Source: Phorcus lineatus
Taxonomy: Eukaryota > Mollusca > Gastropoda > Trochida > Trochidae
Direction: 5' to 3'
DNA length: 64,000 nucleotides
Assembly: GCA_921293015.1 (NCBI GenBank)
Contig: OV121088.1
Coordinates: 36,518,836-36,582,835, forward strand
Shown: positions 1 to 46,662 of the stretch, piece by piece
How the letters are laid out: the number at the start of each line of letters is the position of its first letter
How positions within the stretch are numbered: the first letter of the stretch is position 1
Notes under the pieces: model-generated
Told to the model about the DNA's origin: nothing
The model's database searches: none
Seen by the model: only the letters and a program-made list of their open reading frames with translations
Made by a program: the position numbers and the translations under genes

Positions 1-308
1 TTTGAAAACAACTCTTTCAAAAAGTTTACCAATGCAACTGATAAGGGATATGGGTCTATAGTTTGAAGCTAATGTTGGATCACCTTTCTTGAATAGTGGC
101 ATAACATTTGCAGTTTTCCACTCAGATGGATATACGCATGATTGCAATGACATATTAAATAATAAACATAGAACACGACTTATTGTATGGACAACATGTT
201 TTAACAATTTATGGTTAATTCTATCGGGCCCTGAAGCCTTTTTAACATGCAAACATTTTATAATATCCTCAATTTCTCCAACGGTAACTATAAGACTATC
301 CATAACAG
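1..308 (-). pseudogene. Start of LINE reverse transcriptase, frameshifted from ORF2, runs off the window
   Basis: Reading the minus strand from about base 308 to base 1 in the frame after the ORF2 shift gives an open stretch with RT finger-domain hallmarks: KKASGPDRINHKLLKH, PSEWKTANVMPLFKKG and NYRPISLISCIGKLFER. These correspond to the first conserved blocks of non-LTR RTs. The palm motif with the catalytic Asp pair lies beyond the window. The frame is offset from ORF2 by a one- or two-base indel near 305-312. Confidence 0.8.
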
Positions 309-1898: not shown

Positions 1899-2355
1899 TG
1901 TCTAGAAACATGTATTTCTGAATGCGTAATGTGTGACATGGATATCGGAAAAGTTCACTGCAAATCAATTCAGAGTTTTGTAACAAATATCTAATGTAAA
2001 GAGGAAGTGCAGACCTAACGATATAACATACACTGTGTTTGTAGAAAGATGTAGGAAAGGTTAAGCCAGAGGGAAATGTTAAAGAAAAGACAAATACACA
2101 TAATATAGCTAAAGATAAACATGGAAACATGTAAGAATAAGGGTTGGGGGCTGTGTGGATATACTCTGATACTTAACATTGAGCTTCTAATATATATTTA
2201 CAATCAACTGACCTTTTAGCTTATAGACACAAAGTTTGAAATTTGCATCTGAACATTGTCACCAATATGTATATACAAACAATCTAGTTACTTACATGTT
2301 GTTGAATTCCAAATTTTAAACACTTTTTACACACACAACACATGTTTATGTTCAC

Positions 2356-3311
2356 TCAGTTCCTTCTAACATATCTGTTGAGATCCTCCTTGCACTGGAC
2401 TTGTCTGATAGCTCCTTCAGGTTGTTCTAGCACAAATACACGTCCATCTTTTGTCCATGTGTTTTCAATCCATCTGGATTTCTTCAGATCACGTGCCATT
2501 TTAAAGAGCTTGCTCCTGTGTTGTGTGAGATCCTCATTTATGTACACATTCTCCATTTTGCTCCTCAACTTTCTGCGATTGGTATACATTCCGTTCTTGT
2601 CCAGATGACTGACGAATTTGACAATAATTTGTCTCTTCCTTCCTTCCGCCGGTTTGCCTACACGATGGCACCTGTCAATATCCGATATTGAAATCTCACT
2701 GTTGATCTTCTTGAGAACGTTGAGGGTCACTTTCTGTACATCCTCGTCTTGAGATTCCTGTACCCCACTGATCCTGATCGAATTCCTTCTGCTATATTGC
2801 TCGAGCTCGTCTGTCTTCCTGTGTAGCTCCTCCTTGACACTCTTCACTCTTCCTTTAGTGTTGTAATCTCCTCCTTCAACGGTTGGACGAACTCTAAGAG
2901 GGTCTGCGATATAATCTCCTTGGCTACCTGTGCAAACGCTTGCTGGAACTTGTCTTGTATTTTCGGCAGCATCAACGCCTGTGATAATTTTGTCGTCAGT
3001 ACATCAACGGACACTTCGTCTATAAAGTTGAAAAGCGTGGACGGGTAAGATATATTAGGAGTCCCTGGTTCAGATGGCTGTTTTCCTGTATTGTCGAGCA
3101 TTGATGTGTTGTCTCCTTTCTCTTCTCCAGTGGCTTTGGGCTTAGGCGTGCTAGTGAAGTTGAATACATCTGGCATAGTCGGTTGAAAGAGAGGCTTCGA
3201 CGTCTTTGTCGGTAGTGAGTCTTGAGGTGAGCCTGAGGGTTTCCTTTTCTCACTCGAACTTCTCGCAGTTGATTTCTCACCTCTTTTGAGACTACGTTCT
3301 CTGGTAGACAT
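2356..3311 (-). pseudogene. LINE ORF1 protein, coiled coil plus RRM-like domain, one frameshift
   Basis: Two adjoining frames cover this region. The 5' frame (3311-2844, 155 codons) starts with a Ser/Lys/Pro-rich basic stretch and ends in a charged helix. The 3' frame (2847-2356) opens at GTG, continues the helix (VKEELHRKTDELEQYSRRN) and then shows features typical of L1-like ORF1 proteins: RRNSIRISGV, DIDRCHRVG, RQIIVKF, RRKLR, VYINEDLT and a WTKDGRVFV tail. The heptad-like helix runs straight across the junction, so the split is best read as a one-base frameshift in a single ORF of about 317 codons. The family role is an RNA-binding chaperone that coats the element's RNA. The cysteine knuckles seen in some ORF1 proteins are not visible. 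Confidence 0.75.
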
Positions 3312-3431
3312 TTTCTTTCAGATGTACGTGATGTAAGTAAATTAATGTGCCTGTGCTGGGCCTCACATAAGCTAATTTACTCAAATATCTTCCACACAAG
3401 CGAGAGCGATCTTACACACGTCTTGTCACAT

Positions 3432-5325: not shown

Positions 5326-8300
5326 TCAGTTCTTAAAGATGAAATAATGTACAGAAGCAACAATAACAAGTACGAAAGAAGTATATCTCCCTGGCGCACC
5401 ACTAACAACCGCTTTTACACAATCGTCATGCAATGTGCGAGTGGGTTTGTCGAATGCACAAACGTATTTAGCACGACATGTTTCATCGCAGTCTCTCACA
5501 CTTGTCTCTCCGGTTGCTAAGAGATTGACATAACGGATATAATTGTCTAAGGCTGATTTGTCTTCCGCCATTTTCTTTATGACCAAACTCAGAGACGCAG
5601 AAGAGAGGTCCTTCATGCCGTACAGTTCTCGTGTGTTGTAAGCAAGTTTCCAGTCCGACTCATTGCGCCTGTTTGCATCCGTCAAGTTTAGGTAGTATTG
5701 GTGATATTCGAGAGGAAGATTCGAACCCCGATCGTATTTGAAGAGTCTAACAGCAGGGTTGTGTGGGTCGCCGGTAAGGTTAGGAATCTTAAAGCGCCAC
5801 GGAGTCACTGACGGGGCCATGTATATCGCCACACCCGGACCTTCTGTAGTAGAAATATATGAATTAGCCTCGCAATGATGATATGAGGATCCCAATGTTA
5901 TTGAGCCTTGTTTACTAGGCGATGAATGAGCTGCATAAATGAACTCTTTCAGTGATATTTGAAGGGGTACTTGACAATACAAGAGGCAACGTATCACACA
6001 ATTTTAACAGCTTCCGTTTTATTACATAATATATCAAAGGGACTTTTCAATATGAAATAATAGATAGATTAAACATCCTATTCCAATGTAATCATTTTCC
6101 CTGATTGAGCCTTGTGATAATTTGATTCTGGTTCTCTGGGAAAGGTGAGTATCAAGAATATGGACCAGGTATAGGTACTATTGATACAAAATATATTTAT
6201 TAGTTGTGTAATGTACGTATGATTAACAGTACAAAGAATCAAAATTTACAAACATTTGGCACAATAACACTATTTTCATGAAAATTCCATCTATAAATTT
6301 CGTTCTTTTAAAGGAAGTGGTTTGATACCACTATTTATCATTCAAAACTGTGTTTGACAGGTGATATCGCATTTAGGAAAACAAGCGCAATTGTTGGCAA
6401 GCCTCGGATATTTCAAATTTTATTAACTCATATTGGTACATTTGATATCAGAAGACACTTTGATGAGGTCCTCTATGTATTCACGATTTGGCAATAACTC
6501 CGAAGCAAAAACACAACCTCCTACAGGAATAGACTTTGAGGATTTTATGTTACTGCCTAATTACTTAGTAAACTTAATTGAGATTTTTTCTGATAAAGAG
6601 ACGTGGAATAGTTTGACATACAGTCAGACATATAGCTACCGTATGAGAGCCTTTGTACAAAATGTTTTTATAAAGGTATATGGAACCATAAAAATCTAAC
6701 CTATAATAAAATTGAATGTATAAATCAGTTTTCTTACCTCCGTTGTTTTTGAGATGTCTGAATACGTCAACATGGTCGTGTCCACAGAACATGCCCACGA
6801 TGATGTCGTGGTTTGAGCTGATGATGTCCATGAAGCGGGTGTGGAACTTGTCTTGGAACCAGAGTGCGCCCCCTGGCATCAGGATACCGGGAGCGATGTG
6901 GGCAGTCACAAGAACCTGCAGATGGAATTGAATAAATAAATATATTGAAAAATTACTCCGAGCTGTAAATACGAATCCATTTTCAAAAATAGAGTAGATA
7001 TATATATTCGAGTCATTGGTGGCAGAATGCGCCCTTTATTTTGAATAAAATGAAACTCAATAGCATAGGTGTTATGTTTTACATGATTAGACTTATTTTC
7101 AATCATAATATGATGCCATTCACTTAGGAAATGATTAATATGTTACCGAAGGTGAAGTCAGCAAATGGTTTTTTGTACGTGTGAATGTGGGCTGATGAAA
7201 ACACTACACGGATATCTGGATATGAACGCGTCACATATTTCTTAACTTTGCATGAAGCATTACTACCGTTACAATACCTTATAACTGAAAACTTCTATTA
7301 GGCATCATATCTGGGTTTTTTAGAAGTATTGTGCATTTCATTTTAGGGAGACGATAATAACAACTTCTAAAATTTTAAGCCCATGGTGTTTACATTTGAC
7401 TCGGGGAGGAATTAAGCTTTTTTAAGGGCTTGAGTTGGACTCCGCTCAAGGAAATCTATCACCTTCTCCCCATCGGTCCTTGCTTTCTTAAACACATCTT
7501 CCATCCAAGCAAACTGACCAACGGGATCCTCAAGGTCAGAGGTCAGCTTGTCCGCCGTGTTGTAAACGTTTGTGTTCAGAGTCATTATCCTAAGTCCGGT
7601 TGAGGTTTTCAGTGTGTAGTAGGCACCTGGAAAAAGGATATCACCGGAAGTATGTACAAGGCAAAAATTGGAAATCAAGTGCTAAACAGGAAGCAGATCC
7701 GTCGGCCCTGTAAATCATTTCAAATAATGATTACATGTCATTGTAGACTCCTCTTTGGAATAAGAGTGAATGAATCGCTATCAATCAGGCTATTATAACT
7801 GGTCAGAGAAGGTAGTCTATACAAGATTTTAGCATTCTAGTGCTTCTTCGCTAAAGGTCTACAAATGTGACCTGGTGCTAAAGACTCTCGTATATTTCAG
7901 TACTCTTCATATTTATAAAACTCTTTTAAGGATGTTCGCTCCTCACCTACTGCGCATGACCAAATTGTAAACTTACAAGTCAAAGTTGCAAAACCTAAAA
8001 AGACTGAAATCATAATGTTCTTATATTATAAACCAAAATGAAGCGGTAATTTCTCAATTTTGATGATGTCTGATTAAATATTCATCAAAATTAACAAACG
8101 TAGTATTTTTACGACAACCGAAATGAAGTTACGGAAAGTGGTTATTTCGGCCGATTGCGCATAGTCAGTGAACAGTGGAAATAAACAGAGGCGGCCCAGT
8201 CTCATGTTACAGTCGCATGTGTTTACATTTGCCCTCAAGTTTAGTTCCCGGTGTATACAAGTGTTGAAACACAAGATATCAAGTCACCAAATTGAGGTTA

Positions 8301-11300
8301 TGAAGCTGCCTAAAGTGTGTAATGAATTTACAAACCCCGCGCGAAGCAATGACCAATGTACCATTTCTCCGAGGCAAACATGGCTAGACAAAACACCACC
8401 AAATCTCGACACTTTACATGGATTTTCTCGATTTATTTGTTGAAGGTGATGAGGGAAATAATCAAGCTTTCCCTATTATATACTGCCCGACAGTGACAGG
8501 AAAAAATTCGACTAAAACCGCTGCCACTGAAAACTAAGAGTAACAGTAAACACATGTCATGCTTGTCGGCTGATAGTACCCTGTTGAAATTAGGTCATGC
8601 TTGTCAGCTGATTCCGATGCGAGCGACAGGGCGAGGCCAACAAAAAACAACAAATCACTGGCACCGGTATGTAAAATGTATTATGAACTTTAAATCTTCT
8701 TACTTTTCTGTCAACATCATTTCAATTTATGATTTAACTTATCTAATTTCATTTCATAGTGATTAATTATCTATTTCTGTATCTTATTGTAATTAAATAA
8801 CCTACTCTCTTGCTGAAACAAATCAAATAATACTTATATATTTTTTGTGAATTTTAGCAATGGGTCATGACATTTATCTGTCACATTTTTCTCATTGAAT
8901 GCACTGTAGACATTATTGTAGACTTAATATTCATTATTCTTGTCATTTAGAACCTGAGATCACCACTGAAAAAGATGCTGTCAGCTAAAGCTGCAGAAAT
9001 TGAGGTAATAAATTGATAATTATCAAATATATAAAGCAAATAAACACTTTTGATTCACTGATTGTATTTGATTTATTCTGATCATTGAAAAAATCATCAT
9101 TGATGAGAATATATTATTGAACTGAAAACTTATATATGTTGTTGCTGCAAAAAGTAGAATGTATAAGCAGAAATGATGAATATTAAAAAAAGTTTTTATA
9201 ATTATTTGGCGGCCAATGACTGAAATATTGCCTACGCCCTAGCAGCATTAGACAGCCTACTCATTTGAATAATTAATTCATTACATAACAATAAGTTATA
9301 TTGTTTTTAGGTCACAATTATATATGTTTGAAGAATCATACTAATTATGACAAATCAAGAAGGAAAAATCCTAATTGACCATTGTCAAGAATTAATTACT
9401 TTCATCATAGGTATTTTTGTAATAATAAAACCTTTGTATATTTCTGTGTTCATGAATGATCATGTAATATTAACCTAATGAGAGAAGAAAGGTCAAAAAG
9501 GTCTTTGAGACTAGACATAATCAAATTTTCAAAAAATTAATTCCCCTTAAATTCATAAAATATTGTTGGGAAGTTTTTTGAGGCTAGTGATTATGTTATG
9601 TGAGGTGTACAATGTTCTTTAAAACAAGATAACATTGAAAGTCACATCTTTCCTACAAGCTTGTTGCTCTTATTCCAAAGGCCAAATTATCAATTATGTT
9701 TATCATTGTATAAACTGTAATGGATTTTTAAAAAGATATGACAATATTGGCTGTTTGCCATTATGAAATGAAAAGGAATCAATTCTAATGAGTGTAGTTA
9801 ACAAACTTATTCATCTTTTCAGGTAGATGTGTACTATCATCCGATGCAGAGTAGAGGATAAACCGTTCTAATGGATGCTGTGACATACAGATCATACAAA
9901 CCTATGATTTCCCAGTGTGTCTGTGAATCTCAGTTGGAGAATAATGACTTGATACATTCCTTTTTGGACAACATACAATAAACAAGGATTTATAGTTTCT
10001 GGTTGAGTTAAATTAATATTTTGTGTACCTGACAAGACACATTTCTCTAGGTATTTTATGTGCGCTTCAAGTTGACCAGTTGCTTCCCTTTATGATTTTT
10101 TGATTTTCTGTACCTTTTGAAATGTGGTGTGAGAAAAGAAATAAATTGTATTTTTGTGTTATTTCTACTGTTTTGTATTTTCTTCATGTTGATTTATTAT
10201 AAATCAAAGACATATGGTATGTTTAAAGGGAAAAAACGTGTCTGATGTATTTTGAATTAATTCATAATTTTGCTGACTCATCAATTTTCAATTGTAACTA
10301 TCATTTGAGCCAGTTTTATTTACTGTTTATCTTAGCAAGTAGATGTTGTTGAATGAATATGATTTGTATGTATGCATTCAGGTAGATTTTTAGATAATGA
10401 GTGGAGGAAAGCATGTTTTTAGTACAAAAATAGCTTGAATGTTGTTTATTTAATTGAAATGTTTCAATACATGTTGCGCCGTAGTGGCTAAAAACCCACA
10501 CTACCATATATATTTTTTACCTTTTTCTGGAAGAAAATTATGTTAACTCTAACATATTTTCATATTAAAAAAAGTTTAATACAGGAAATAATTAAAATTT
10601 AAGATTTCTCAAAAAAGGTCAAGATTTCTCCATAGACTCCCATGTTAAAACTGTGACTCACAAAGGGATCTTTGTCTTAGAATATTTCGAAAAAACCCAC
10701 ACTAACCCCTATTTTTTGGGGTTCATATTTCAAGCAAATACACTTAACTTTTGAAAAATACAAGTTAGAAAAAAAGTTTAATACTTTAAATTTGAGGAGC
10801 GAACATCCTTAAGCACTTAAAACATTTAGTAAAAGTACGAAAAACGAAATACAGGTAGGTGTCTTCAATGCAAAGTGGCGCCTGGCCATATCGTTACATA
10901 TGGCAAACATATGGTGTATTCAGTTTAAGTACACAGGAATAACTCAAAGCATTTCTTCTCACCAAATCACCAAGTTAACAATATTTGGCAATTCTTCATA
11001 ATCCCGTGACATTGAACATTGAAAAACGTGCAGTTCACACAGGTGAAGGCTCTCCAGCTTTCGAAACAGTAAAGGCAATATACCTAATGCTTAGTTATTC
11101 AACATATCTGACTTACCCAATCAGGATTCTGTATTTCTGAATCGTCCCATTTGTGAGAAAGGTGATAAAGACAGAAATCACTCATGATAGGCTGAGGAAG
11201 ATGATTTACCAACCTCTCCGGAAGTTCTTCAGTTGATCAGGGGAGACAATCCATTCTTCCCACATGTCAGCAGTTTCGTTGTAGATGCGGTGGGAAGTGT

Positions 11301-13672
11301 CCGGAAACTGACCGTCAGGATACCAGTCATGGTTGCCCAACGTTGCGTACACCTTCATTCCGGGGAATGCACTCTTAAGGGCGTCTGTGACACTCTTCAC
11401 GACGTCGAGGTTGTACGTCACGTTCGTGTAGTCGTCCTTGATGTGGGCAACATTATCTCTAGACGAAGAAGCATTTCATGTTAATGAGAACATGGGAATG
11501 AGGCAGTGATTCTGCATAACATGGGCTCTATTTTGTTGAAACAAGATGATTTGGTTTGGTTGTGAGTTGGCGTATTGTTTATGATTAATCGTATGACCGT
11601 TCAAACATATTTTTGTATTTTTTGCCTGCTGTACGTAAGTCTAAAATATTACGGTTGACTCTATTGCGCGCTTCATTATCTATTTAAAAACAAACAAACT
11701 AATAAATTTTAATCTTTATGGTATAAAGAGTTCTCGGGTCTGCAATTGGTGAATTCTGGAGAAGAGAAAACAATAGAAATCACCCTGTCCAGAGAATAAA
11801 GTCTACATCTTTCTTCAAGGCCGCCATGGCGTTGATGCTGTCGTTGACAAGTCTCCAGGGAGAGTCACACCAGTAGTCGCCATAGATACCCGGATCAGGA
11901 ACTGCGTCATTGCAGGATCTCTGGTCTGTCCAGTAGGTCGTGTCGTAATGGTGGTCCGTGATGTGCCAGAAGTAACCTGCAAGTCAAACATAGACACTCA
12001 TTGCAGTAACCTTGAAAGTGAAATAAACGCATTGAGAGTAACCTGTCACTTAAATTTAGCACATAGAAATAACATGTCATGTAAATTACGCACATTGAAG
12101 TTACTTGACATGTAGAACATAGTCACACAATAAAGTATCCTGGCATATAAAACAAAGCCGTTCATTGACGTAATCTTGCAAGAGAGGTATACACACCGAA
12201 GTAACCATCCATGCGATACACACATTGAAGTAACCATCCATGCGATACACACATTGAAGTAACCTACCAGGAGAGATACACGCATTGAAGCAACCCACAT
12301 ACACATTTGAGTAACAAACACAAAGTAACTTTGAAAAACCCCCACACCAATTAAAGTAACTTTGTGAATAAGATATAGATATTGATACAGATACATGATG
12401 CTCGCCCCATAAATACATAGATCAAGACATCGGAATGCAAGATACGCATATGGAACTAAAATTCTGGTGCACTACCACTTCACTATAGAAGAAACATTGA
12501 GATGCAAGATACGCGCACATGGAAGTAGCATGATTGGGATAAGACATATGCATTTGTGGGGATGGACCTTACTGTTTATGAATGTGCGCTATCATTGCAT
12601 GCTACAGTATCGGTTGTTATTTTGATGGCCAGAAATATCAATTCATCCCTATCACGGCTCTTGTATTTGTCAGTATGAGAACACCACGGCTCTGCTATCG
12701 CTTTAACATCAATATGACCATGGTACAGCTACAATACAGTCATCTTGAATCACTTAATAAGCTATTTTTTAATGATGACAAGTACTATAAATACAACTAT
12801 ATGTAACATTATATATCCTCTTATATAAACAAAGGGCAATATGGTCCCGTGAATCATTCATTTTAACCTCGTAACGGGAATGATACACGATAAAACGAGT
12901 CCTCGTTGTCCTCTATTCGTGAATAGGCTTGGTTTTCCTTGGTTTATCTGAGGTAGTTTACTGGTAGAATGAATGAATTTCACACCGTTTATTTGATACA
13001 TCAGACCAATCATCTAATCTCGATTGAGTATTATGTGATCAAACCAGTTTGTCAGATATGTTTCCGCTTTATCCCCGTCACGCATCGGTGAATATTTGCA
13101 CCCGTTATGCTTATCCTAAACTAAGATATTATCCCTTTGGTATTTCATAAATCATCATATTTTGACATCATAAACCTCAGCTTGAAGAGAGTTCAAACTA
13201 ATCTGTCAGATCTGTTGAAATAAAAGCTCCAATATTGACTCGCTATCTCGCTTTCACGCATTGGTGAACATTACATGGTACAAATGAAATGCTTGACCTA
13301 ATCTACTTTTGAATGACGAGGGATTTCCTATAAATGGAGCTGCTGTTGAGAGATGAAATGACGAATAATATTTTCTTTGATATGAATTTGTGTTAGTAGC
13401 TGCTACGTAGCATCTTCCTACGCAAAGGTTAACTATTGCCAGTCTAACTTGGACAGTTCGAGACTGGCAATAGTTAAGCCTTGCGTAGGAAGATGGCTAC
13501 TTAGTGGTGAGAGCACAGTTTACAAAGAATGTGACGTATTGGTGTTAACATATCATCACTTGCTCGTTAACGTGCTCTTATTTTGTATGAGATGAGTTCA
13601 AAAGGTTTTGCAACTAGAAAACATTCATGCTACGAAAACCATTTTATCTACTAGTATAGGCATAGGAACCGG

Positions 13673-13708
<36 letters not shown>

Positions 13709-15353
13709 GGGAGGCATTTGGGGGCGTAGGAAGGGATAATACTTGGATAGTTGATGTGAAATTCGATATCTTATATAAATGTGTTATGCATTTTGTGTAT
13801 TCATGTCTCGTAAGCCATATGTTGATGTTATGTTTTTAATAGTTTTGATTATATGGCAATATTGTATGTATAGCATGTGACACGCGAATAAAACATTTTC
13901 TTCCTCTTCTTCTTCTAATCCTATTGTTATATAACGGAAATGGTTTCTCTGAATTTCAGCGCAGTACCACCCATGGTTCGCTTATTTTGTATGAGATGAG
14001 TTCAAAAGGTTTTGCAACTAGAAAACATTCATGCTACGAAAACCATTTTATCTACTAGCATAGGCATTTGAACCGGGGTGGGGGGGGGGGAGGCATTTGG
14101 GGCGTAGGAAGGGATAATACTTGGATAGTTGATGTGAAATTCGATATCTTATATAAATGTGTTATGCAGTTTGGGTATTCATGTCTAGTCATAGTTTTAA
14201 TTATATGGCAATATTGTATGTATAGCATGTGACACGCGAATAAAACATTTTCTTCCTCTTCTTCTATAATCTTATTGTTATATAACGGAAAAGGTTTCTC
14301 TGAATTTCAGCGCAGTACCACCCATGGTTCGCTAATTCCAGCCGATGGTCGCTGGTTTTACCGCAATGCATAACCACAATGGTGTTGCGGGCTTTCTCCC
14401 TGCAACAATACTAGCGGCCGAAATATTAGTGAAATACTCTTGAAAGCGGCTTTAGACCCCATATCACCTCACCTCACCTCACCACGGCTCAATAAAGTAT
14501 ATTCACACCTACAATGTTGCATTAAAAGCACAGCTGCCACTTCAACTTATTGTGTTTTTGTAACTTAAGCTGACTGATTATAATGCTTGCTGAACATGAA
14601 CATTATTGCTGAATGGCATTCTATAAATATTCACGAGTCATAAGTGTGCTCTTCATCTAGTGTATACTCAATATACTAAAATATACAAATCTTAAAGAGA
14701 CACCTGCTACATTCGTGGTGCTTTAACGCAAATGAAATCAATAATTCAGAAACCAAATACATATCAATAAAACATTTTTATTGGTGACTCGGTTCTTATC
14801 ATGCGTTTAAAAACGAAAAGGAGAAAATAGCTTGTCATATACGTAGCCCTAACCATAGACTTAATATATTCGCTCAAGTAGATGTACAAGGTAAGATAGC
14901 TAAGGCATACAATTGACAGATTTGACAAAGTACACAAGAATTCAATTTAATTGGCTTTGGGTTTTGGAGAAGATGGCACAATCCTGTTTAGTATGACCCT
15001 TCAACCAACAAGTTTTCTTTTTATAATCCCCATCAATCAGGTGTCTGATAACAAAGCTGCAACTTTCTACTAAAGACAACTTTCTATGAAAACGACTAGA
15101 GGAAAGAGTAAACTTTTCGGATGACTTTGTTTTTGGGGAGACAAAAAAGGTTAAAAACATGGGCCCTGGGCTCCAGGCTGGAGATTCCATTCAATCTAAT
15201 TTGATTAAATGTTTAGTGTACATAAGTACAATAGCACACATGTATAATTGTCACACTCATACACAAACAAAATCCACAGATGGACTCACCTTCTTCTGCC
15301 CGTACCAATTGAACAACTGTCAACACGAGACTCAGCAACCCAGTTTTCTCCAT
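5326..15353 (-). CDS. Acid sphingomyelinase-like phosphodiesterase, SMPDL3 family (paralogue A), 6 coding exons
   Basis: Coding exons on the minus strand are 15353-15290, 11976-11784, 11458-11214, 7626-7463, 6915-6738 and 5843-5326. All have AG/GT borders and matching phases, giving 453 residues, close to the family's usual length of about 450. Residues 1-19 are a signal peptide (MEKTGLLSLVLTVVQLVRA). The calcineurin-like metallophosphoesterase motifs are all present: DHH (Asp29, His31), GDNVAH (86-91), GNHD (127-130), TAHIAPG (His228) and GHDH (267-270). The C-terminal domain ends in a hydrophobic tail (YTSFVLVIVASVHYFIF) compatible with a GPI signal, as in SMPDL3B. Cys pairs near CDETC and the WC-DS segment follow the family. 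The expected role is a secreted or membrane-anchored Zn-dependent phosphodiesterase acting on nucleotides or phospholipid headgroups. The substrate cannot be told from sequence. The introns of 3.3 kb and 3.6 kb hold repeats. The start is the only ATG that gives a signal peptide and the correct donor phase. Confidence 0.92.
6916..7462. other. Intron 4 of paralogue A
   Basis: AT-rich intron with no open frame or repeat that I can recognise. The donor is AAG|GTGATA at 7462 and the acceptor is TGCAG at 6916. The neighbouring intron 5 (6737-5844) is similar and also shows nothing of note. Confidence 0.7.
7926..10814. mobile_element. 2.9-kb TTAA-flanked element with short terminal inverted repeats, in intron 3 of paralogue A
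   Basis: The left end reads TTAA-GGATGTTCGCTCCTCA (about 7926-7944) and the right end TGAGGAGCGAACATCC-TTAA (about 10795-10814). These are perfect 16-base inverted repeats flanked on both sides by TTAA, the target of piggyBac-type transposons. No transposase frame is visible, so it is non-autonomous if it is one. The interior contains a possible plus-strand transcription unit with spliced-looking short exons and an AATAAA, listed separately. It lies antisense to the host gene. Confidence 0.7.
8560..10145 (+). ncRNA. Possible spliced transcription unit carried inside the TTAA element
   Basis: Splice-like signals occur in order: a donor CACCG|GTATGT near 8666, an internal exon 8951-9004 bounded by TCATTTAG and GAG|GTAATA, an acceptor TTTTCAG before 9833, and AATAAA at 10140-10145. 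The 54-base exon is open in one frame (NLRSPLKKMLSAKAAEIE). The last exon continues it for about a dozen codons before a stop. This could be a small coding gene, a noncoding RNA or chance. No domain is recognised. Confidence 0.3.
11977..12540. repeat. Degenerate minisatellite in intron 1 of paralogue A
   Basis: A motif like CATTGAAGTAACC recurs every 25-40 bases between about 12000 and 12360, with two near-identical 29-base units at 12205-12265 (each containing CCATCCATGCGATACACACA). The open frames seen here on the minus strand are repeat artefacts. Confidence 0.7.
12541..13380. other. Intron 1 of paralogue A, unremarkable part
   Basis: AT-rich DNA with no recognisable gene, exon or repeat family. 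A short plus-strand frame at 12582-12806 has no supporting feature. Confidence 0.5.
13408..13500. repeat. Near-perfect hairpin with arms of about 38 bases
   Basis: The segment TAGCATCTTCCTACGCAAAG-GTTAACTATTGCCAGTCT (13408-13445) is repeated in inverse at 13461-13499, with a loop of about 15 bases. Mismatches are few. The size and structure fit a small fold-back MITE. The flanks TTAGTAG and TTAGTGG are similar but not identical, so a target duplication is unproven. Confidence 0.7.
13577..14335. repeat. Tandem duplication of about 404 bp with a poly-G tract in each copy
   Basis: Copy 1 is 13577-13980 and copy 2 runs from 13981 to about 14335. They are nearly identical, sharing ATGAGATGAGTTCAAAAGG, the GGCATTTGGGG segment, and an end reading AGTACCACCCATGGTTCGCT. 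Copy 1 has 32 consecutive G at 13676-13707; copy 2 has a shorter, interrupted G run near 14077-14090. Copy 2 also lacks about 30 bases present in copy 1. Confidence 0.85.
14305..14480 (+). repeat. SINE-like 3' body and tail
   Basis: The block starting near CAGCGCAGTACCACCCATGG includes GGGCTTTCTCCCTGCA, GTGAAATACTCTTGAAAGCG and a CACCT-repeat tail. An inverted, diverged copy lies at 40600-40850, where a tRNA-type B box precedes it, and a partial copy lies at 30478-30610. The GTGAAATACTCTTGAAAG block resembles SINE/LINE tails I associate with mollusc genomes, from memory only. Confidence 0.5.
14481..15289. other. Intron 1 of paralogue A, 5' part
   Basis: AT-rich, no recognisable gene. A minus-strand frame at 14942-15190 is open for 82 codons but has no domain and lies in the intron just downstream of the signal-peptide exon, so I treat it as chance. 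Confidence 0.5.
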
Positions 15354-15571
15354 ATCAGGATCTAGTTGATGTTCCTCGCTTGCGAGCTCTCAACAAATAG
15401 CCAGTTATGGCGGTGAGGGTAGAAAAGGACACCAATTCACCGACCTATGATGCACGCCCTAATCCCTTACGCATCGATTGAGATCAAACCAGTTTTTATG
15501 AGACGTGAGGGTGGCAAACTTCCTCACCGTCACTGATCACTGAACAGGACATTCTCTAAACCCTTCCATCA

Positions 15572-16178
15572 CATAATATAATAACATAACACCAATTGAA
15601 AGGCTTTGCTTAGCACAATCAAAGTTTATTGTCCAATCTACTACGCCATTCCAAAAGCTACAATTCTTGGGACAGCCAAACTTCATTCGAACTTTACACT
15701 TCGCCTTATTTAGCAACTGCACAATGCTTAAGCCTCGATGACAACAAATACGCTATTAGTGCTGACATTTATGCGGATAGTTTGCGTTGCAATATTTTGC
15801 CGGTAGAGGAACCAGAAGGAAGCCGAGAAGAGCTTGTATTAGAACAGAGGTAAGTATAGGAATCTACAAACCTCTGTGGGCAGAAAATGTCCAAAAGTTA
15901 GCCTAGTAGAGAAAAAATTACTTCACCGTTCGGCAACAAATTTTGCATCCTCGATAAACCAGGGCATATATACGAATAAATCTCCATTAACACCCTGGAC
16001 GAAATCATTTAACCATTACCTCTTGCTGACTCTGCTTGTAAGATTCTGACTTCAGATTATATAATGGAACTGTAAGAACTGCCACATTATGCTTACTTTC
16101 TTCTCGATTGATTGACTTGTACTCTAGAAAGATTATACTTTACCGTTATCGGAGTTTTCAGTAGTGTCACACGTAGTG
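15572..16178. repeat. Interspersed repeat R1, copy 1, upstream of paralogue A
   Basis: About 600 bases highly similar to 17402-18231 in paralogue B, and more distantly to 29200-29560. Shared landmarks are ACACCAATTGAAAGGCTTTG, CCTCGATGACAACAAATACG, AACAGAGGTAAGTATAGG and TTACCGTTATCGGAGTTTTC. The plus strand contains a good donor-like site (CAGAG|GTAAGT) at the end of an open frame (15629-15853), but copy 2 breaks that frame with indels. I therefore call it a noncoding repeat rather than a gene. Confidence 0.7.
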
Positions 16179-16697: not shown

Positions 16698-19600
16698 TTA
16701 ACGAAGGACAAAGGCAAACATCGATGACATCATTACAAGAAAACAAGAAGACAATAACCTCAACGAGACGCTGACACACATTTCAAAATCATTCTTGTTC
16801 AGGTGAGTGAAGCTGCATAAAATCCTTGCTCGACATAATGTGTCACACTCGTCAACGGGTATATCTCCCAGAACATTGATATTGAGGATGTACCTATCAA
16901 GTGTATCTTTGTCGGTCTTCATGTTCGTCATAGTCTTTTCCAGTGATGTCCCTGTCAGGTCGGTCATACCGTAAGCCTTCTCAGTCTTGTAGGCCACCTT
17001 CCAGTGGGACTTGTTGTGTTGGTTAGCCTCGGTCAGGTTCAAATAATACTGGTGTATGGCCAGAGGAAGACTGGATGCTCGGTCATACCTGGTGGGTAGT
17101 CGTTTTAACATTTGTACATATTTTTTAAACATATTCATTCACTTTTGATGACAGGATTTGTAAAAACAGAGATTCTTATGTTGATTTCGATGCCCGCTGG
17201 ACGGGTAATAAAGTGATATCAATGATTGAGAATTCACTCACCTGACGGGTCCAATGGTGGGGCAGTTAGGTTGTTTCATTGATAGAGAATCCACTCACCT
17301 GACGAGTCTAATGGTTGGGTTGTGAGGTTGTTTAATTGATAGAGAATCCACTCACCTGACGAATCTGATGGTGGGGTAGTGAGGTGGTAACAATGATTGA
17401 TCCAACACATAATGACATAACAGAACACCAATTGAAAGGCTTTGTTTTGCGCCACCGCGTTTATTGGATGCATCAAGGGAATGTACTTCCAAACGTCCAA
17501 TATACAGGTTGAAAGGGACCTGGCAATGACGTTCTGAGTAATAAAGCCGGTATACCCGACGAAGAGCCTATCTAGGCAAGTCAGTTCAAACGAGCGTTTC
17601 ACGGTCTAGAAATGAAGAAGCCTATTTGGATGCAATCAAAGATAATTGTCCAATCTACGACGCCATTCCAAAAGCTTCGGTTATTTCCATATGCTTCGGG
17701 AAAGCCAAACTTCATTCGAACTTTACACTTCGCCTTATTTTGCGACTGCACAATGCATAAGCCTCGATGACAACAAATACGCTATCAGCGCATGCGGTGT
17801 TATCATTGGCTGACAATTTGCGGATAGTTTGCGTTGCAATATTTTGCCTGTAGAGGAACCAGAGGGAAGCCGAGAAGAGCTTGTATTAGAACAGAGGTAA
17901 GTATAGGAATCTACAAACCTCTGTGGGCAGAAAATGTCCAAAAGTTAGCCTAGTAGAGAAAAAATTACTTCACCGTTCGGCAACAAATCTTACATCCTCG
18001 ATAAACCAGGGCATTTATAAGGATAAATCTCCATTAACACCCTGGACCAAATCATTTAACCATTACCTCTTGCTGACTCTGCTTGTAAGATTCTGACTTC
18101 AGATTATATAATGGAACTATAAGAACTGCCACATTATATATGCTTACTTTCTTCTCGATTGATTGACTTGTACTCTAGAAAGATTATACCTTACCGTTAT
18201 CGGAGTTTTCAGTAGTGACACAACACTCACAACACAATCCACTCACCTGACGAGTCTGATGGCGGGGTAGTGAGGTTGTTTGATTAATAGAGAATCCACT
18301 CACTTGACGAGTCTGATGGCGGGGTAGTGAGGTGGTCCTGTCAGATCAGGGATTTTGAATCTCCAGGGTGTTAATGCTGGTGCAAGATACACTGGAACTC
18401 TGTATGCGCCTGAAAATTGCAAAAAATATACTCTTAATAGCAAATGAAACTAGTTGAATACTAGGGGTGTACAGTAAATAGTTTTCCTCATCAAAACACA
18501 TATACGCGATTTACATATGCAGGATTCTATATAATAAATCTAATATTTTCTAGGACAGTTTCTTAACGAGACAGTATCTACCATGTTCTGACGATTGTCT
18601 CTTCATACGTCTATGAAAATAGCTGAATATAAATGAAAGGCATACCATTATAAAAGAAGTCCAAGGGAAAAGAGGATTTTATTTTTCAATTACATTAATT
18701 TTTACAGATATTACACTCCTATAAATCACGATGACTACTCTATCCAAGAGAATAGTAACCAGATGGGGAAAATGTGCTTTGATTTTGTTTTAAAAATGTA
18801 AAAACCTTTTAAATATTGGATAAAGGGAAGTGTTTAACTCATACATCGAATACTCTTCCATTAAAATTCTTCAAACAAATACCTAAATCTAACCAAATCG
18901 GTATGTCATTGTTTGTCGAACTGCCTCATTGTCATTATCACAATCATATACAATTCTTACTCTCACCTCTTTCAATAAGTTTAAAACCGTCCCCGTGCTC
19001 GTGGCCACAGAAGATGCCTACGATGATGTCGGCGTATCGCTTGACGATGCTGATGAAGCGGTGGTTGAACCTGTCGTAGTACCACTGTAGTTGGGTGGAC
19101 GCGTGTACACCCGGGGGGATGTGACCTGTCATCAACACCTGTATTGAGAGTTGCAGGAGGAGGAGGAGACAAATACACAGGCGCCAGACTCTGAATGTAC
19201 AATATCATGTAAGTATATTTCATATAAATATGTAACATAAACAAGGTCTGACACTGTCGAAATGCGAAATGGGATCTGTCTACCGAGCCAGGAAACCAGT
19301 ATAATCATTTCCGGTCCTATTGCAGACACGACAGTGTCATACCTTGTTTATGTTATATAGCTACATGTATATATACTTTAAAGATATTGTACATTCAGAG
19401 TCTGGCGCATGTGGACAAATACTACAGAATAACTACAGAATACACAGTGATACGTCATAACATGAATTGCCGTTTATAAAATATCTTTCGATTAATTTTC
19501 TCCCCACAGAATTCCACACATAAACAAGTCGAACACTTTCCTAGCTAGATATACAGAACAGTTTCCGATTCAGCAATGGTGTTTCAAATTGAGACGTTGG

Positions 19601-22600
19601 TCCCTGTCGGTAGCCGTTGAAAAGTCGTTATGTACACATGTAAAGACAGAGGTCAGTAGGACTATAAGTCGATGAGTCGGATGAATAGGAGGCAATATAT
19701 TCTGCCTGAAAATAAGGCGGAATTGCTGTCAAGGACGAATAACACCTTTTAGTAAGGATACGATTACTGTAATTACTTACAGAGTTGCATTTTCTTATCG
19801 CTTGATAAGTTTGCCACAATTGTACCTAAAATGTTCAATCAATTAAACTAATTGGGGTGCAGTCAGACCATTGTGGAGAGAAAAACTCGTTTGGAGTTCG
19901 AATAGCAGCAGAGTCAATTGTAAAACAAAATGTTTATTTCTCGGAACACGGTAGGTTTTAATCAGTCTGATCAATTGTAGAACTTGTAACTCTCCAGATT
20001 TAGTTGGCCAACAAAATATTGGCATACTTCCGCCCTGAACTATATATTTTATCACCTTCTCATTGTCTGCCTTCGCCCTCTCCATTACGTTCTCTAGCCA
20101 CTGAAACTGACCAACGGGGTCAGTTGCATTTGAGGTCAGCTTGTCCCGGAAGTAGTACACGTTCGTGTTGAGCCCCACAATCCTCAGTCCACTCGCAGTT
20201 TTTAGCGTGTAGTAACCACCTGAAATATTGCTGAGATTAATGTGTTATAAATTTTCTTAAATGTTGCCAATGCAAATGACAATGGATTAGAATTGACTTC
20301 ATGTTCTTTAAACACGTATGGTTTATGTTGCCTCGGCATGCTTAAGAATTAAATATGTAGTGAGTTATGATGTTAAAATGACGCCATCCTCCTACATCAG
20401 CTTATTTGTCTCCGCCTTGCTCCATCATATACCCTGATATCCTTTGGCCTAAACGCTCGTATCGCTTACGGCTGGTTACTCATGACTCTTTATAGCCTAC
20501 ATTGACATTTGTGTGAACTCTCATCCGGGTTGTGCCGCTTTTGCTGAATGCGAGTCATTTCATTGGCTTGCGTTTTAGGCCGAAGGATATCAGGGTATAT
20601 GATGGAGCTGGGCGGGGACAAATACGCTGATGTAGCAAGATGAAATGACGTGAAATTCAATATTCGGATATTCATTTAACCATGTATTTCCTTGGGTCAG
20701 AATGACCCTTCGTTATGATAGCGCATTAAAGATTGAGGCTTTGACCGTATTCATAGATACCCGAAAGTGGGAAATATTGACTTACCCACATTCAATTTTA
20801 AAGCTTTTACAAGCGCTTTCGACATGCTTATTCTGAGCCAAGTACAATTTTACAAATATTAATATACAAAATATCATAAAATATCATATGGATCATAAAC
20901 AGGTTAATGAAATAAGTCATTATTGAAATGTTAGTTAGTTTCTGTAATCTGTACTAATTTTCTTTCAAGTTTACAAAACACTATATAGAGAATCTCTCAA
21001 AAGTTGACTATGACAGGGCATTAAAATGTCATCCAGGATAGTTGACGATGACACTGCAATTCGAAACGATGTTTTCTAAGATAGTTGACGATGACGGAGA
21101 ATCGTGAAACGATATCTTATAGAATAGTTGACGATGACATTGCATTGTGAAACGACATCTTCTAGGATAGTTGATGACAGGATTGTGAAACAATATCTTC
21201 TAGGATAGTTGATGACAGGATTGTGAAACAATATCTTCTAGGAAAAATGATGATACGACTGCGAAACGATATCTTCTAGGATAGTTGATGACACGATTGT
21301 GAAACGATAGATTTTAGGATAGTTGATGACACGATTGTGAAAAGATATATCTTCTAGGATAGTTGATGACACGATTGTGAAACGATATCTTCTAGGATAG
21401 TTGATGACACGATTGTGAAACGATATCTTCTAGGATAGTTGATGACACGATTGTGAAATGATATCTTCTGGGATTGTTGATGACAGGATTGTGAAACAAT
21501 ATCTTCTAGGATAGTTGATGACAGGATTGTGAAACAATATCTTCTAGGAAAGTTGATGATACGACTGTGAAACGATATCTTCTAGGATAGTTGATGACAC
21601 GATTGTGAAACGATAGATTTTAGGATAGTTGATGACACGATTGTGAAACGATATCTTCTAGGATAGTTGATGACACGATTGTGAAATGATATCTTCTGGG
21701 ATTGTTGACGATGACAGGACATTGTAAAAACCATATCATTTAAGCATATCCTATCATTTCACATAAGCGACATATCTCATGGAACTCAGCTTTTGGTGAT
21801 AAATCGCAACAAACGCAGCTCTAACGACCAACCTTGTCTGAAGGTCTTCAGCTGATCCTCGTCGAGCCAAGACTCCCACATCGATGCAGTGTTAGTGTAG
21901 ATAGGATGAGGGGACGGGGAGAACTGGTCTGACAGGTACCAGTCATTGTTCCCCATGGTAGGGAACACCGGCACTGTAGGGAACGCCGTCAGAATGGCGT
22001 TCGTCACGTTTCGCATGATGTCGAGGATATAGCTCTGGTCCATGAAGGCGTCGTCTATGTGTGGTATACTATCTCTGAGACACAGAAAAACTCATAAAAA
22101 CAATACATAAACAGGAGCATATATACAGCTGTAAGAAAGTATTGCAACACCATTTTCTCTCTCTGTGTTCCTATGTTCTGTAAGCGACCTGAACACATTA
22201 GGGGTTTCCAGTTATGTTCAGAACTCTACTGACAGATGCAGTGCCAATAAGAAATGGAATCAACGGTCTAATAGGTAGCTCAGCATCTTGTTCAGGAGGA
22301 GACGTTTTTGGGTTTACACCAAATACTTTTTTTCTTGTTTCAGTGTCTTCATTTATTAGTCGAAGTCAGTCCATGTCGACATTCACCTCTTCTAATAAAA
22401 TATTATTGTTAGAGCAAAACCTTTTTGACTTTCGACTTTGACTTTTCGGCTGTTTTACACGGGCTATGTAGTATTTTTCAAATGATCAATTAGGTAATTT
22501 TTATTGGTATTTATATCTTCATTTTGTTCAACCTTAAACAAACACTTTGATATGAATTAGGTTCTTGTTAATCAAATGTCAACATTTATCAGCTCTACAG

Positions 22601-23806
22601 TCATTGAAAACGTAGGTGTTGCAATACTTTATGCTGAGCGCATATATGGAATGACGACTATCTCCATCTAGCCTTCCTCACCCTGTCCACAATATAAAGT
22701 CCACATCCCCGCGTATTTTGGTCATGCTTTGAAGGCTGTCGATGACCAATCCCCAGGAAGAGTCGCACCACTCGCTGCCATAGTAACCAGGATCCGGAAC
22801 TTCGTCATTGCAGGATCGCATTTGAAAGCCGTACGTAGGATCATAATGATAATCGGTGATATGCCAAAAATATCCTTTGAAAAAAGAAGTATAGTCTGTA
22901 TGTATAAGGTCAATAGATAGGTGGTGTAAGAAAGACAATTAAGATGGATGTATGAAACGTCATCTTAGCAAGATACACAGAACGAGTAATATCGGCATTT
23001 AATATGCAAAGTTCTAAATAATTGTGTCCACATCCAATTAAATAATTATCTCTCCAGTAGATCAATGTTTAAATTCCTAATTTTTCCACACTTACCCAAC
23101 TAACCTGTACCATATTTTATTCATAAATAAGTAAAACTATTCAAATATTCGACTTCTGGTCAGGTAACCTGAATTCGCTGCTGCACAACATTCCTGACGT
23201 GTCCCGGTTGCCCTTGCGTGTTTATGAAAATTTAAAATAAAATACATTTGAAACTTATTTTCCGTACATAAATAACATCTATAGCGTTAAAACGATCATG
23301 CAAAATACATTTTGAATCATCATTGTTCACGAAAACATAAGTGTGTCAAGTTTTACACATTGTTAAACCTGTAAGCAAAGATTCATAAAAATGAATGTAC
23401 TAAAAATAACTCAAGGTCATTGCGACACGCTTATTTTATATTATGACAGCTTTCTGTAACTTAAGGGGAAAATGTAAGCTCTTGAAAAATTATAGATAAG
23501 TTTGAAATAAATACTTATCTTTTTTACGAGTTTGAAATATCTTAAGCATTGAAATTCGCATTCTAAATTTTTAAACCTCATCGGTTAAGAGATTATTTAG
23601 GTCATGGTCATAAACATGTAGACAGTTAAGACGCTTTTGAAATTCGTAAGACTCTGATTATAAATCGATTATATTTATTCCAACATCCATTATTTTGTTT
23701 CATTATTACAGTGTTAATAATCTTGTAGTGTTATACAAGTACCTTCGTCAGCTTGTGTAGAGACGAAAAGAATAGCGAGAAACAAGTGCACGATATCAGT
23801 TTTCAT
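16698..23806 (-). CDS. Acid sphingomyelinase-like phosphodiesterase paralogue B, 7 coding exons, catalytic His replaced by Asn
   Basis: Coding exons on the minus strand are 23806-23743, 22874-22682, 22074-21833, 20219-20056, 19138-18967, 18409-18304 and 17088-16698. All borders are GT-AG and the phases close, giving 443 residues. There is a signal peptide (MKTDIVHLFLAILFVSTQA). Metallophosphoesterase motifs: DYH (Asp29, His31), GDSIPH (86-91), GHIPPG (His227) and GHEH (266-269). At 127-130 the motif is GNND instead of GNHD: codon 129 (21947-21945) is AAT. The corresponding codon in paralogue A is CAT. That His acts as proton donor in this superfamily, so B may bind metal but be catalytically weak or inactive. 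The C-terminus is hydrophobic (SSCFLVMMSSMFAFVL), compatible with GPI anchoring. Exons 1-5 match paralogue A in phase and near-exactly in length. B has one extra intron, splitting a Lys codon in the RLVKYDR segment. Confidence 0.92.
17217..18340. repeat. 58-bp tandem repeat derived from the exon 6 end, within intron 6 of paralogue B
   Basis: The last 31 or so bases of exon 6 plus the donor and about 25 intron bases recur in the intron at roughly 17225-17280, 17283-17338, 17341-17390 and 18240-18297, next to the true exon end at 18298-18340. On the minus strand each copy reads like CATCAGACTCGTCAG|GTGAGT. Spacing is about 58 bases. Repeat R1 copy 2 interrupts the array between the third and fourth copies. 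Confidence 0.8.
17402..18231. repeat. Interspersed repeat R1, copy 2, inside intron 6 of paralogue B
   Basis: Close match to copy 1 (15572-16178), with an extra segment of about 150-200 bases near its left end and a short insertion near 17790-17815. It splits the exon-derived 58-bp array, so it arrived after that array formed, or the array was duplicated around it. No open frame is conserved between the copies. Confidence 0.75.
18411..18966. other. Intron 5 of paralogue B
   Basis: AT-rich intron with no recognisable repeat or exon. The donor is AGAG|GTGAGA at 18966 and the acceptor TTTTCAG at 18410. Confidence 0.7.
19176..19413. mobile_element. Fold-back MITE with 8-bp target duplication (hAT-like), intron 4 of paralogue B
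   Basis: Terminal inverted repeats of about 84 bases begin CACAGGCGCCAGACTCTGAA on the left and CACATGCGCCAGACTCTGAA when the right end is read in reverse. They are separated by about 70 bases. The flanks carry the identical octamer GACAAATA at 19168-19175 and 19414-19421. An 8-bp duplication is the hAT-superfamily signature. There is no transposase, so it is non-autonomous. Confidence 0.85.
19843..19990. repeat. Single arm of a fold-back repeat family
   Basis: The segment from TTGTGGAGAGAAAAAC through TTTCTCGGAACACGGT matches the right arm of the fold-back element at 29550-29990, including the CTCGGAACACGGT block. It lies in intron 4 of paralogue B, just downstream of exon 4. Confidence 0.6.
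20384..20642. mobile_element. Second fold-back MITE with 8-bp target duplication, intron 3 of paralogue B
   Basis: Arms of about 72 bases (20384-20456 and 20568-20642) share TCCATCATATACCCTGATAT, in inverse orientation. The octamer AAATGACG flanks both ends, at 20376-20383 and 20643-20650. The 8-bp duplication again points to the hAT group, but the arms differ from those of the 19176-19413 element, so it is a different family. Confidence 0.8.
21034..21718. repeat. 38-bp minisatellite in intron 3 of paralogue B
   Basis: About 17-18 units of a 38-base motif containing GGATAGTTGATGACACGATT and GTGAAACGATATCTTCTA. Units vary at several positions, and there are signs of higher-order duplication: the sequence around 21180-21330 recurs at 21480-21640. 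Confidence 0.9.
22083..22681. other. Intron 2 of paralogue B
   Basis: No repeat family recognised. A short plus-strand frame (22214-22441) is open for 75 codons and lacks any domain. The intron donor is GG|GTGAGG at 22681 and the acceptor TCTCAG at 22075. Confidence 0.6.
22875..23742. other. Intron 1 of paralogue B
   Basis: AT-rich intron between the signal-peptide exon and the first metallophosphoesterase exon. No repeat or exon is recognised. Confidence 0.6.
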
Positions 23807-25316: not shown

Positions 25317-25724
25317 CACTCATATATTTATCTATATTCTATTGGTTTCCAACTGCATTGATAAAGTTCCTATATCTCAATATTACCAAATGACACACTG
25401 TTATCCTAATAACCTCATAACAACGAGAAGATTACATCCCGTATTAAAAGATAATAAAATGCATACATATGTTGAGTCATATAGTTGACAAACAGTTTGT
25501 TAAAATCCATTGTCAGATAAGAAACTTGTATTCTTCTTCGCTCACTTACCAATGTTTAAAGGATGCCCCATAACATTCAGAACGCCGGGTTTGTGAAAGA
25601 ATCGTGGAACCCCTCCAAGCATAAAGGAATTCGCAAAAGGCAAGCCAAAATAAATTCCATCAACAGCTGTGGCGGCCAGTAGACAAACTGCAGCTAACAC
25701 ACATACTGTCATTTTGTTAGTCAT
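24963..25724 (-). CDS. Small secreted Pro/Gly/Tyr-rich protein, copy 1 (2 coding exons)
   Basis: Coding exons 25724-25550 and 25117-24963 join in phase 1 through GTAAGT/CATAG borders, giving 109 residues. Residues 1-20 or so (MTNKMTVCVLAAVCLLAATA) are a signal peptide. The mature part starts with an aromatic/hydrophobic stretch (IYFGLPF), then FFHKPGV. The last exon encodes a Pro/Glu/Tyr/Gly-rich tail with AEPEYGPAAEPG repeats. Exon order, phase and AEPG motifs match the gene at 30935-31612, so the two are paralogues. Such small secreted low-complexity proteins are common among mollusc mantle, shell-matrix or adhesive products, but I recognise no specific family. A leader exon and TATA box lie upstream. 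Confidence 0.8.
25245..25312. repeat. (CATA)n/(TA)n microsatellite in an intron
   Basis: Several CATA units run into about 22 TA units, between the two coding exons of the small secreted gene. Confidence 0.95.
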
Positions 25725-26210
25725 CTTGACGTTTCTATCTGCAACAAAATTATCGCAAGTAAGAACAAATATAATACAAATCACACATTCAAACCCAGCA
25801 CCTGGAATCTCCGGGCAAAAATATCGGTTTGGATGGATGCCGCAATAGGGAAATTCGCGTCATGAAAAGATTATTTGGACCGAATGAAAAATTCAGTTTC
25901 TCAATATCGGATTAACGGGGTGACGATTTAGAGGAAAAGTACTGTATACGATTTTTTAACTTACTTAGTATAAGAATGAAGGTCGCAAAAGTATCTGAAA
26001 TATGACTGGAGGTTCTTTTTGTAGCAAGTGAAATGGGTAATACAAGAAACTTTTCAGTAATTATGAAAATATCCCCTTGAGTCACAAAAAACCCACACAA
26101 CAAATACAATAATATTTTCAAGAACCTGCAATCACACAAACTCGAACGTTCGAAAAGAATATATCTATGATTACAGCAATGTTATAAAAGAATGCAGACT
26201 ATTTACTCAC

Positions 26211-40893: not shown

Positions 40894-41436
40894 CCACAGG
40901 GGCGTGTATCGCTTAGAAATAGCTTTAGAAAGACATATATACCCATAGACCCTACCCTACTACTATATAAAAAGAAAGGGATGTAACGACCAAACCACCC
41001 CATGCTCGAACAAAGTCAGTTTTCGCATCCAAAATAATTTTTCTGGACAAATTGTTCACTACGATTCGAAAGCTAAATGATTTCCCCACAAAACGAGCTA
41101 TGGATTGTCAAAATCGGGTAATTATTTCAAAAGTTACATGCAACGACACCCCGAAAATCGCTACCGCCAGATTTTCAAGCCAAAATCCCCTCTCACGAAA
41201 AACAGCAAAAACTCACCGTTTAACATCGTTTATTGATTCCGGAAATGTTGACAACACCAATGTAGAGCTCGATTCGATCGGTGACATCGAACTACATGTT
41301 CACAATATGAGAACAGCACCTAATTATTATTTCTACGAGTGCTAGCAGACATTATAAAAAATCATCAGCTTTGCGGTTGTCTTGTCCACCATAACAGTGG
41401 CCTTGACATTCATTTGACCTCGTAGCCGCAGCAAAT
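40894..41436. repeat. Left arm of a large inverted repeat
   Basis: About 540 bases match 46196-46662 in inverse orientation with very few mismatches. The left arm has about 78 extra bases near 41155-41245. The arm contains a TATA-like TATATAAAAAG at 40964-40974 and an inward open frame (41052-41345). Confidence 0.9.
41052..41345 (+). CDS. Unrecognised 97-residue frame in the left inverted-repeat arm
   Basis: Starts MFTTIRKLNDFPTKRAMDCQ, about 80 bases downstream of a TATA-like box, and ends PNYYFYEC. The right arm encodes the same frame with an in-frame difference: 30 residues here replaced by 4 there. I do not recognise the protein. It may be a real first exon or a passenger of the duplication. 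Confidence 0.35.
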   Translation: MFTTIRKLNDFPTKRAMDCQNRVIISKVTCNDTPKIATARFSSQNPLSRKTAKTHRLTSFIDSGNVDNTNVELDSIGDIELHVHNMRTAPNYYFYEC

Positions 41437-46195: not shown

Positions 46196-46662
46196 ATTTG
46201 CTGCGGCTACGAGGTCAAATGAATGTCAAGGCCACTGTTATGGTGGACAAGACAACCGCAAAGCAGATGATTTTTTATATAATGTCTGCCAGCACTCGTA
46301 GAAATAATAATTAGGTGCTGTTCTCATATTGTGAACATGTAGTTCGATGTCGCCGATCGAATCGAGCTCTACATTGGTGTTGTCGGGGTTTTTGGAGATT
46401 TTCGGGGTGTCGTTGCATGTAACTTTTGAAATAATTACCCGATTTTGACAATCCATAGCTCGTTTTGTGGGGAAATCATTTAGCTTTCGAATCGTAGTGA
46501 ACAATTTGTCCAGAAAGATTATTTTGGATGCGAAAACTGACTTTGTTCGAGCATGGGGTGGTTTGGTCGTTACATCCCTTTCTTTTTATATAGTAGTAGG
46601 GTAGGGTCTATGGGTATATATGTCTTTCTAAAGCTATTTCTAAGCGATACACGCCCCTGTGG
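46196..46662. repeat. Right arm of the large inverted repeat
   Basis: Inverse of 40894-41436, shorter by about 78 bases. The TATA-like box is at 46593-46582 on the minus strand. Confidence 0.9.
46238..46504 (-). CDS. Unrecognised 88-residue frame in the right inverted-repeat arm
   Basis: Counterpart of the left-arm frame, starting MFTTIRKLNDFPTKRAMDCQ. It reads NDTPKISKNPDNTNVELD where the left arm has a longer segment. It reads through the position where the left arm has TAG (TGG here) and ends RLSCPP. Both frames point into the spacer. Confidence 0.35.
   Translation of the reverse strand: MFTTIRKLNDFPTKRAMDCQNRVIISKVTCNDTPKISKNPDNTNVELDSIGDIELHVHNMRTAPNYYFYECWQTLYKKSSALRLSCPP

Follow-up and report, generated by a model that had tools for sequence, protein, structure and literature searches.

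Gene B of the gastropod Phorcus lineatus encodes a protein of the SMPDL3 type in which the family motif GNHD reads GNND. This raises the question of whether a phosphodiesterase family protein without the GNH histidine is still an enzyme. The initial annotation of the locus proposed a possible pseudoenzyme, with altered or lost phosphodiesterase activity. The window analysed here is a stretch of 64,000 nucleotides (C13:36518836-36582835), and genome searches covered the 957.8-Mb assembly of 74 contigs.

Gene B runs on the minus strand from 23806 down to 16698, and its spliced model of seven exons encodes 443 aa (Table 1). Every junction has an AG acceptor and a GT donor, and no stops, frameshifts or broken splice sites were found in the model, in line with the earlier description of the remaining exons as intact. 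A hydrophobic start and a hydrophobic tail are recognizable by eye, in agreement with the signal peptide and tail proposed before. The protein matches PF00149 (Metallophos) with 50.2 bits, against a cut-off of 21.5, and PF19272 (ASMase_C) with 69.1 bits, against a cut-off of 23.7. Gene A, its neighbour in the window, also exceeds the Pfam cut-offs for both domains. An NCBIfam search returned no match.

The best PDB matches of gene B are SMPDL3B (5kar, 271 bits) and SMPDL3A (258 bits), followed by ASM (136 bits). The matches to SMPDL3B (5kar, 9k2e) and SMPDL3A (5ebb, 5ebe, 5fc1, 8w6p) span nearly the whole length, residues 22-419 of B, with about a third of the residues identical. These proteins share with B the calcineurin-like domain, the ASMase_C domain, the metal-ligand positions and the GDxxxH histidine, but they read GNHD instead of GNND, and B lacks their prolines at 133 and 138. 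SMPD1, the acid sphingomyelinase, has the same catalytic and C-terminal domains in the same motif order, but it scores lower and carries a saposin domain. No saposin domain is present in B, where the catalytic domain begins at about residue 22, right behind the signal-like stretch. These bit scores favour a grouping with SMPDL3 over one with ASM, and the tree (below), which has one ASM row and a midpoint root, leaves the deeper forks open. Judged from its sequence, gene B stands as a member of the SMPDL3 family by descent; a place among the proven enzymes does not follow from this.

Table 1. Features of genes A and B. Positions are those of the window unless C13 is named.
Feature	Position	Strand	Basis or remark
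Gene A, 453 aa, GNHD, six exons	5326..15353: 15353-15290, 11976-11784, 11458-11214, 7626-7463, 6915-6738, 5843-5326	-	
Gene B exon 1, signal-peptide-like N-terminus	23743..23806	-	
Gene B exon 2	22682..22874	-	
Gene B exon 3, carries GNND	21833..22074	-	
Gene B exon 4	20056..20219	-	
Gene B exon 5	18967..19138	-	
Gene B exon 6	18304..18409	-	
Gene B intron 6, private	17089..18303	-	no intron at that place in A, C, D, E, F
Gene B exon 7, ASMase_C region and hydrophobic tail, stop TAA	16698..17088	-	
DYH (29-31) of gene B, metal motif DxH, kept	22846..22854	-	spliced model
D87-H91 of GDSIPH, gene B; H91 aligns with the GDxxxH His (mouse ASM His280, taken as proton donor)	22059..22073	-	alignment
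Asn128 of gene B, metal-ligand Asn of the motif, kept	21948..21950	-	alignment; ligand role from ASM papers (PMC4961792, PMC5062611)
Codon 129 of gene B, AAT (Asn), GNND; plus strand ATT	21945..21947	-	His in nine other family genes found in the genome
G226-H227 of GHIPPG (226-231), gene B, ligand His kept	19121..19126	-	alignment
GHEH (266-269) of gene B, both His kept	18995..19006	-	alignment
Near-identical exon 2 copies	A, 11784-11976; others C13:36507219-36507411, C13:36513850-36514042, C13:49635922-49636114		

The minus-strand reading of gene B across the motif is GGG-AAC-AAT-GAC, or G-N-N-D, and the second Asn is residue 129 of the spliced model. Residue 129 of gene A is CAT, inside GNHD. 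The sequences of both loci thus bear out the reported difference of one codon, AAT against CAT. A false Asn through a frame error was excluded, as residues 5-88 of the exon 3 open frame align without gaps to SMPDL3A. We also searched the B locus for an alternative exon with GNHD and found none; a scan of its sense frames for other GNx[D/E] motifs gave one GNRD only, close behind a stop. It should be noted that the base call at codon 129 comes from one assembly.

By alignment with SMPDL3A and SMPDL3B, the seven metal-ligand positions (DxH, GD, the N of GNH, the H of GHxPPG, and GHxH) and the GDxxxH histidine are all present in gene B. This agrees with the motifs listed earlier as kept, which in B read DYH, GDSIPH (residues 86-91), GHIPPG and GHEH. 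Gene A reads AHIAPG where B reads GHIPPG, and the ligand His is present in both. The feature absent from B is GNH[D/E] with its histidine, which is usual in the family but not strictly defining, since a bacterial relative (L059, below) also reads GNND.

Is the Asn shared by other members of the family in this genome? A whole-genome search with the ASMase_C profile matched seven places, and a genome search with B added three more distant genes on C15 (E values of 1.9e-5, 1.6e-4 and 0.0585). The C15 genes have ASM-like residues and no ASMase_C match, and their family placement is on weaker evidence. Together, at least ten ASM/SMPDL3-type genes were found: A, B, C, D, E (C13:49.63 Mb), F (C5), one ASM-like gene on C11 and the three on C15. 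This number is a lower bound taken from the best-scoring candidates of the searches. GNHD or GNHE is present in all nine genes other than B, including E and the C11 gene (L003), both with GNHD; among the ten found, only B has Asn.

Four of these genes form a same-strand array, transcribed in the order B, A, D, C, with C and D just past the low end of the window. We examined 100 kb on each side of the window, and no further array members were found in the rest of these 200 kb of flanks. A and B are identical at 226 of 442 aligned residues; A has one intron fewer. Gene C is intact and encodes 458 aa with GNHD; its first exon was picked from two candidates on the basis of a signal-like sequence and a donor site. 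In gene D, GNHD is kept, but just past this motif 10 nt of exon 3 are missing in comparison with C, and the frame is shifted as a result (L015 4309-4574, adjoining the window). Gene D is thus a pseudogene candidate.

Outside the genome, SMPDL3A and SMPDL3B in PDB have His in the GNH column. Seven bacterial relatives were read; the first scan gave none, the second six and a plasmid search one. His is present in six of the seven, as GNHE in L009 and as WDDHD in L010-L014, the latter being 23-27% identical. The seventh, L059, is metallophosphoesterase WP_157934732.1 of Microvirga ossetica plasmid NZ_CP016620.1 (L059 35-1405), and it has GNND in the same column as B. Like B, it is SMPDL3-like (top PDB match SMPDL3A, 74 bits) and has both Pfam domains, with DxH, GDxxxH, HxPxG and GHxH all kept; unlike B, it is bacterial, and the two share 22% identity. 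A search seeded with L059 gave one more distant plasmid match, from Legionella adelaidensis, and a search of three genomes for more relatives gave two weak matches, both in one genome. The earlier statement that the family reads GNHD does not strictly hold, since L059 has GNND. From this comparison of sequences, the Asn is B's own change within the genome, and the same change arose or was kept elsewhere in the wider family. The yeast endopolyphosphatase Ppn1 is a possible active relative of the GNN type; one paper searched for the motif makes no mention of it. Our literature search found nothing on an SMPDL3A expansion in Mollusca or on SMPDL3A in bivalves, and nothing on pseudoenzymes among the calcineurin-like phosphoesterases or on phosphoesterases with GNND.

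What the change may mean for B depends on what the GNH histidine does. In SMPDL3B this residue is presumably His135, corresponding to residue 129 of B, as counted along the alignment from the precursor start. The laboratory mutant H135A would then be altered in the same column as B, but by an engineered Ala in a vertebrate protein, whereas B has a natural Asn. Two studies treat H135A as a phosphodiesterase mutant or as inactive in catalysis (PMC8216717, PMC6584700), and it still bound the insulin receptor isoforms and caveolin-1 (PMC6584700). In mouse ASM, the corresponding change of His317 to Ala lowered activity on bNPP slightly, while the mutant of the GDxxxH histidine, His280, was dead on this substrate; on sphingomyelin liposomes both mutants failed (PMC4961792). 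The authors concluded that His280 is the proton donor and that His317 is probably important for substrate binding (PMC4961792). The human ASM paper prefers the GNH histidine, His319, as proton donor, and H319Y leads to severe disease (PMC5062611). The role of this histidine is thus disputed between the two ASM structure papers. To call it the catalytic His, as was done for this locus before, is too strong in view of the mouse mutants (PMC4961792), of the activity of the GNCD enzyme YfcE (PMC4320098) and of the GNND of L059; the GDxxxH histidine is kept in B.

Natural variation at the motif has been described as well. Among class III phosphodiesterase homologues, a subclass of 100 carries GNCD; one of its members, YfcE, cleaves bis-pNPP with very low affinity (PMC4320098). 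Like B, enzymes of the YfcE type lack the GNH histidine by nature and keep the metal motifs, but they average about 183 aa, have Cys and not Asn, and lie outside the ASM family (PMC4320098). In a liver fluke, SMPDL3A reportedly lacks a different residue of the active site, the one that bridges the metals (PMC12841337), which sets a precedent for natural variation at the active site in the SMPDL3 family. In the known cases, then, absence of the GNH histidine weakens or redirects activity, but it need not abolish it.

B might even be fully active, with the GDxxxH histidine doing the acid catalysis and the Asn being a tolerated, recurrent variant that tunes substrate binding. The slight loss of bNPP activity in mouse H317A, together with His280 as the likely proton donor (PMC4961792), would fit with this, as would diester cleavage by a GNCD enzyme (PMC4320098), the GNND of L059 beside otherwise intact motifs, and the presence of H91 and the ligand positions in B. 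On the other hand, H135A serves as an inactive form of SMPDL3B (PMC8216717, PMC6584700), the proton-donor role is given to the GNH His in human ASM (PMC5062611), and His is found in nine of nine other genes and six of seven bacterial relatives. We regard full activity as possible but doubtful.

The state of the gene as a whole was compared with that of its paralogues. Between A and B, dS is 2.09 by NG86 and 15.0 by ML; between B and C it is undefined by NG86 and 9.5 by ML. For A and C, three methods gave dN of 0.10-0.11 and dS of 0.42-0.44. As synonymous sites are saturated, dN/dS on the B branch is not estimable. In a tree without exon 2, B joins A, C and E with support of 100/99, and its end branch is 0.73, against 0.74 for the GNHD paralogue E; ASM and F form long branches, and the deeper forks are open. 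We also counted private changes at columns otherwise invariant among seven SMPDL3 sequences, with gap columns dropped and both gene D and exon 1 of E and F left out. This gave 1 for A, 7 for B, 0 for C, 6 for E, 12 for F, 11 for SMPDL3A and 8 for SMPDL3B, where near identity of A and C lowers the counts of these two, and the common exon 2 lowers those of A, C and E. The private changes of B are P61S, H129N, P133L, P138S, P281Y, N307Y and A406S; three of the seven (129, 133 and 138) fall inside ten residues at the GNH loop.

A gene long free of selection would carry stops or frameshifts, and their absence from B at saturated synonymous distance points to constraint. By these measures gene B looks to be under ordinary protein-level constraint; it is not relaxed overall, but its active-site loop is altered. 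Intactness, branch length and private-change counts led us to reject decay of the whole gene, so the earlier view that B has been retained held up; it should be noted that these measures would not reveal a very recent loss of selection. The Asn might also stem from an error in sequencing or be a private allele, or it might mark a very recent loss as the gene turns into a pseudogene. It is one base away from the CAT of A in a single assembly, and the 10-nt deletion in D demonstrates that array members do decay. However, B has no second lesion, two conserved prolines close by are changed too, and exon 3 of B was found once in the protein search. We consider such an error or fresh loss highly improbable.

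We favour, with a little more confidence than doubt, the reading that B is a folded, metal-loaded enzyme with weakened or re-tuned activity. Gene B would encode a secreted or membrane-anchored protein of the SMPDL3 phosphodiesterase family that is retained under constraint. It has lost the phosphate-contacting histidine of GNH[D/E], along with changes in the following loop (H129N, P133L, P138S), and the rest of the gene shows no surplus of changes. The protein would still fold and bind two metals, and its GDxxxH histidine may still perform acid catalysis. Asn129 would then lower the turnover of the ancestral substrate or shift substrate choice, and the usual activity might be supplied by A, C, E and F. 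The GNND of L059 speaks against Asn as the mark of a dead enzyme: with the same change present in a bacterial relative, altered activity of B is likelier than complete inactivity.

A true pseudoenzyme with a non-catalytic role, for instance in binding a ligand or a partner protein, seems improbable to us. In its favour are the constraint on the whole gene alongside a changed active-site loop and the H135A form of SMPDL3B, which retained its binding to the insulin receptor isoforms and caveolin-1 (PMC6584700). Against it, every metal-ligand position is kept in B, and the combination of GNND and kept ligands in L059 looks like a working state. Proteins freed from catalysis tend to lose metal ligands. 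The expression "altered or lost phosphodiesterase activity" used for B is fair, while the word pseudoenzyme goes beyond what is known, given the disputed role of the histidine and the GNND of L059.

There is also an outside chance that B is a natural counterpart of SMPDL3B H135A. As such it would be a surface-anchored, metal-loaded binder of nucleotides or cyclic dinucleotides that cleaves slowly or not at all, and it could act as a decoy or sensor, or damp its active paralogues A, C or E by pairing with them. Mammalian SMPDL3A and SMPDL3B are cGAMP hydrolases with ligand-induced dimerisation, according to a review that links the family to extracellular cGAMP control in mammals (PMC13157387). 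Given such dimerisation, a tandem array that includes a slow partner would hold a simple regulator. If B is inactive and yet kept, this would indicate a non-catalytic job for SMPDL3 proteins. A natural Asn long retained beside intact paralogues, with a distant bacterial match, offers a natural test of whether the histidine is needed for the chemistry or only for large substrates.

Some further observations were made on the array. Exon 2 (193 nt) differs by 1 to 4 bases only among A, C, D and E, silent sites included. Yet gene E is 13 Mb distant, and in exons 3-6 it is only 59-65% identical to A. Among the genome matches listed, these four are the only near-identical copies of exon 2, and the fifth match is B, with 82% over 83 bases. 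Downstream, the identity stops with the exon; upstream it is lost over a few bases in E and over some tens of bases in C and D, as judged by eye in flanks of up to 150 nt. Exon 2 of B is outside this homogenisation, with 132 of 193 bases as in A. The pattern resembles gene conversion or copying restricted to the exon, which for E would reach across 13 Mb.

The private intron 6 of gene B contains the end of exon 6, with its donor site, in tandem copies of 57 bp. The donor motif GTGAGTGG occurs four times, including the donor in use, and the intron also holds a block common to 15565-16171. These features fit a gain of intron 6 through local duplication, in whatever order the events took place. 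In intron 3 of B, close behind exon 3 (window 21035-21716), a 38-bp unit is repeated in tandem about 16 times.

Elsewhere in the window, the minus strand between A and D (288-3376) has open frames resembling a non-LTR retrotransposon by eye, one endonuclease-like and one ORF1-like. Two open frames that closely resemble each other, one at 40971-41345 on the plus strand and the other at 46238-46585 on the minus strand, suggest an inverted repeated element. A minus-strand open frame at 25542-25859 has a signal-peptide-like start, MTNKMTVCVLAAVCLLAATAVDG, and may be exon 1 of a gene for a further secreted protein.
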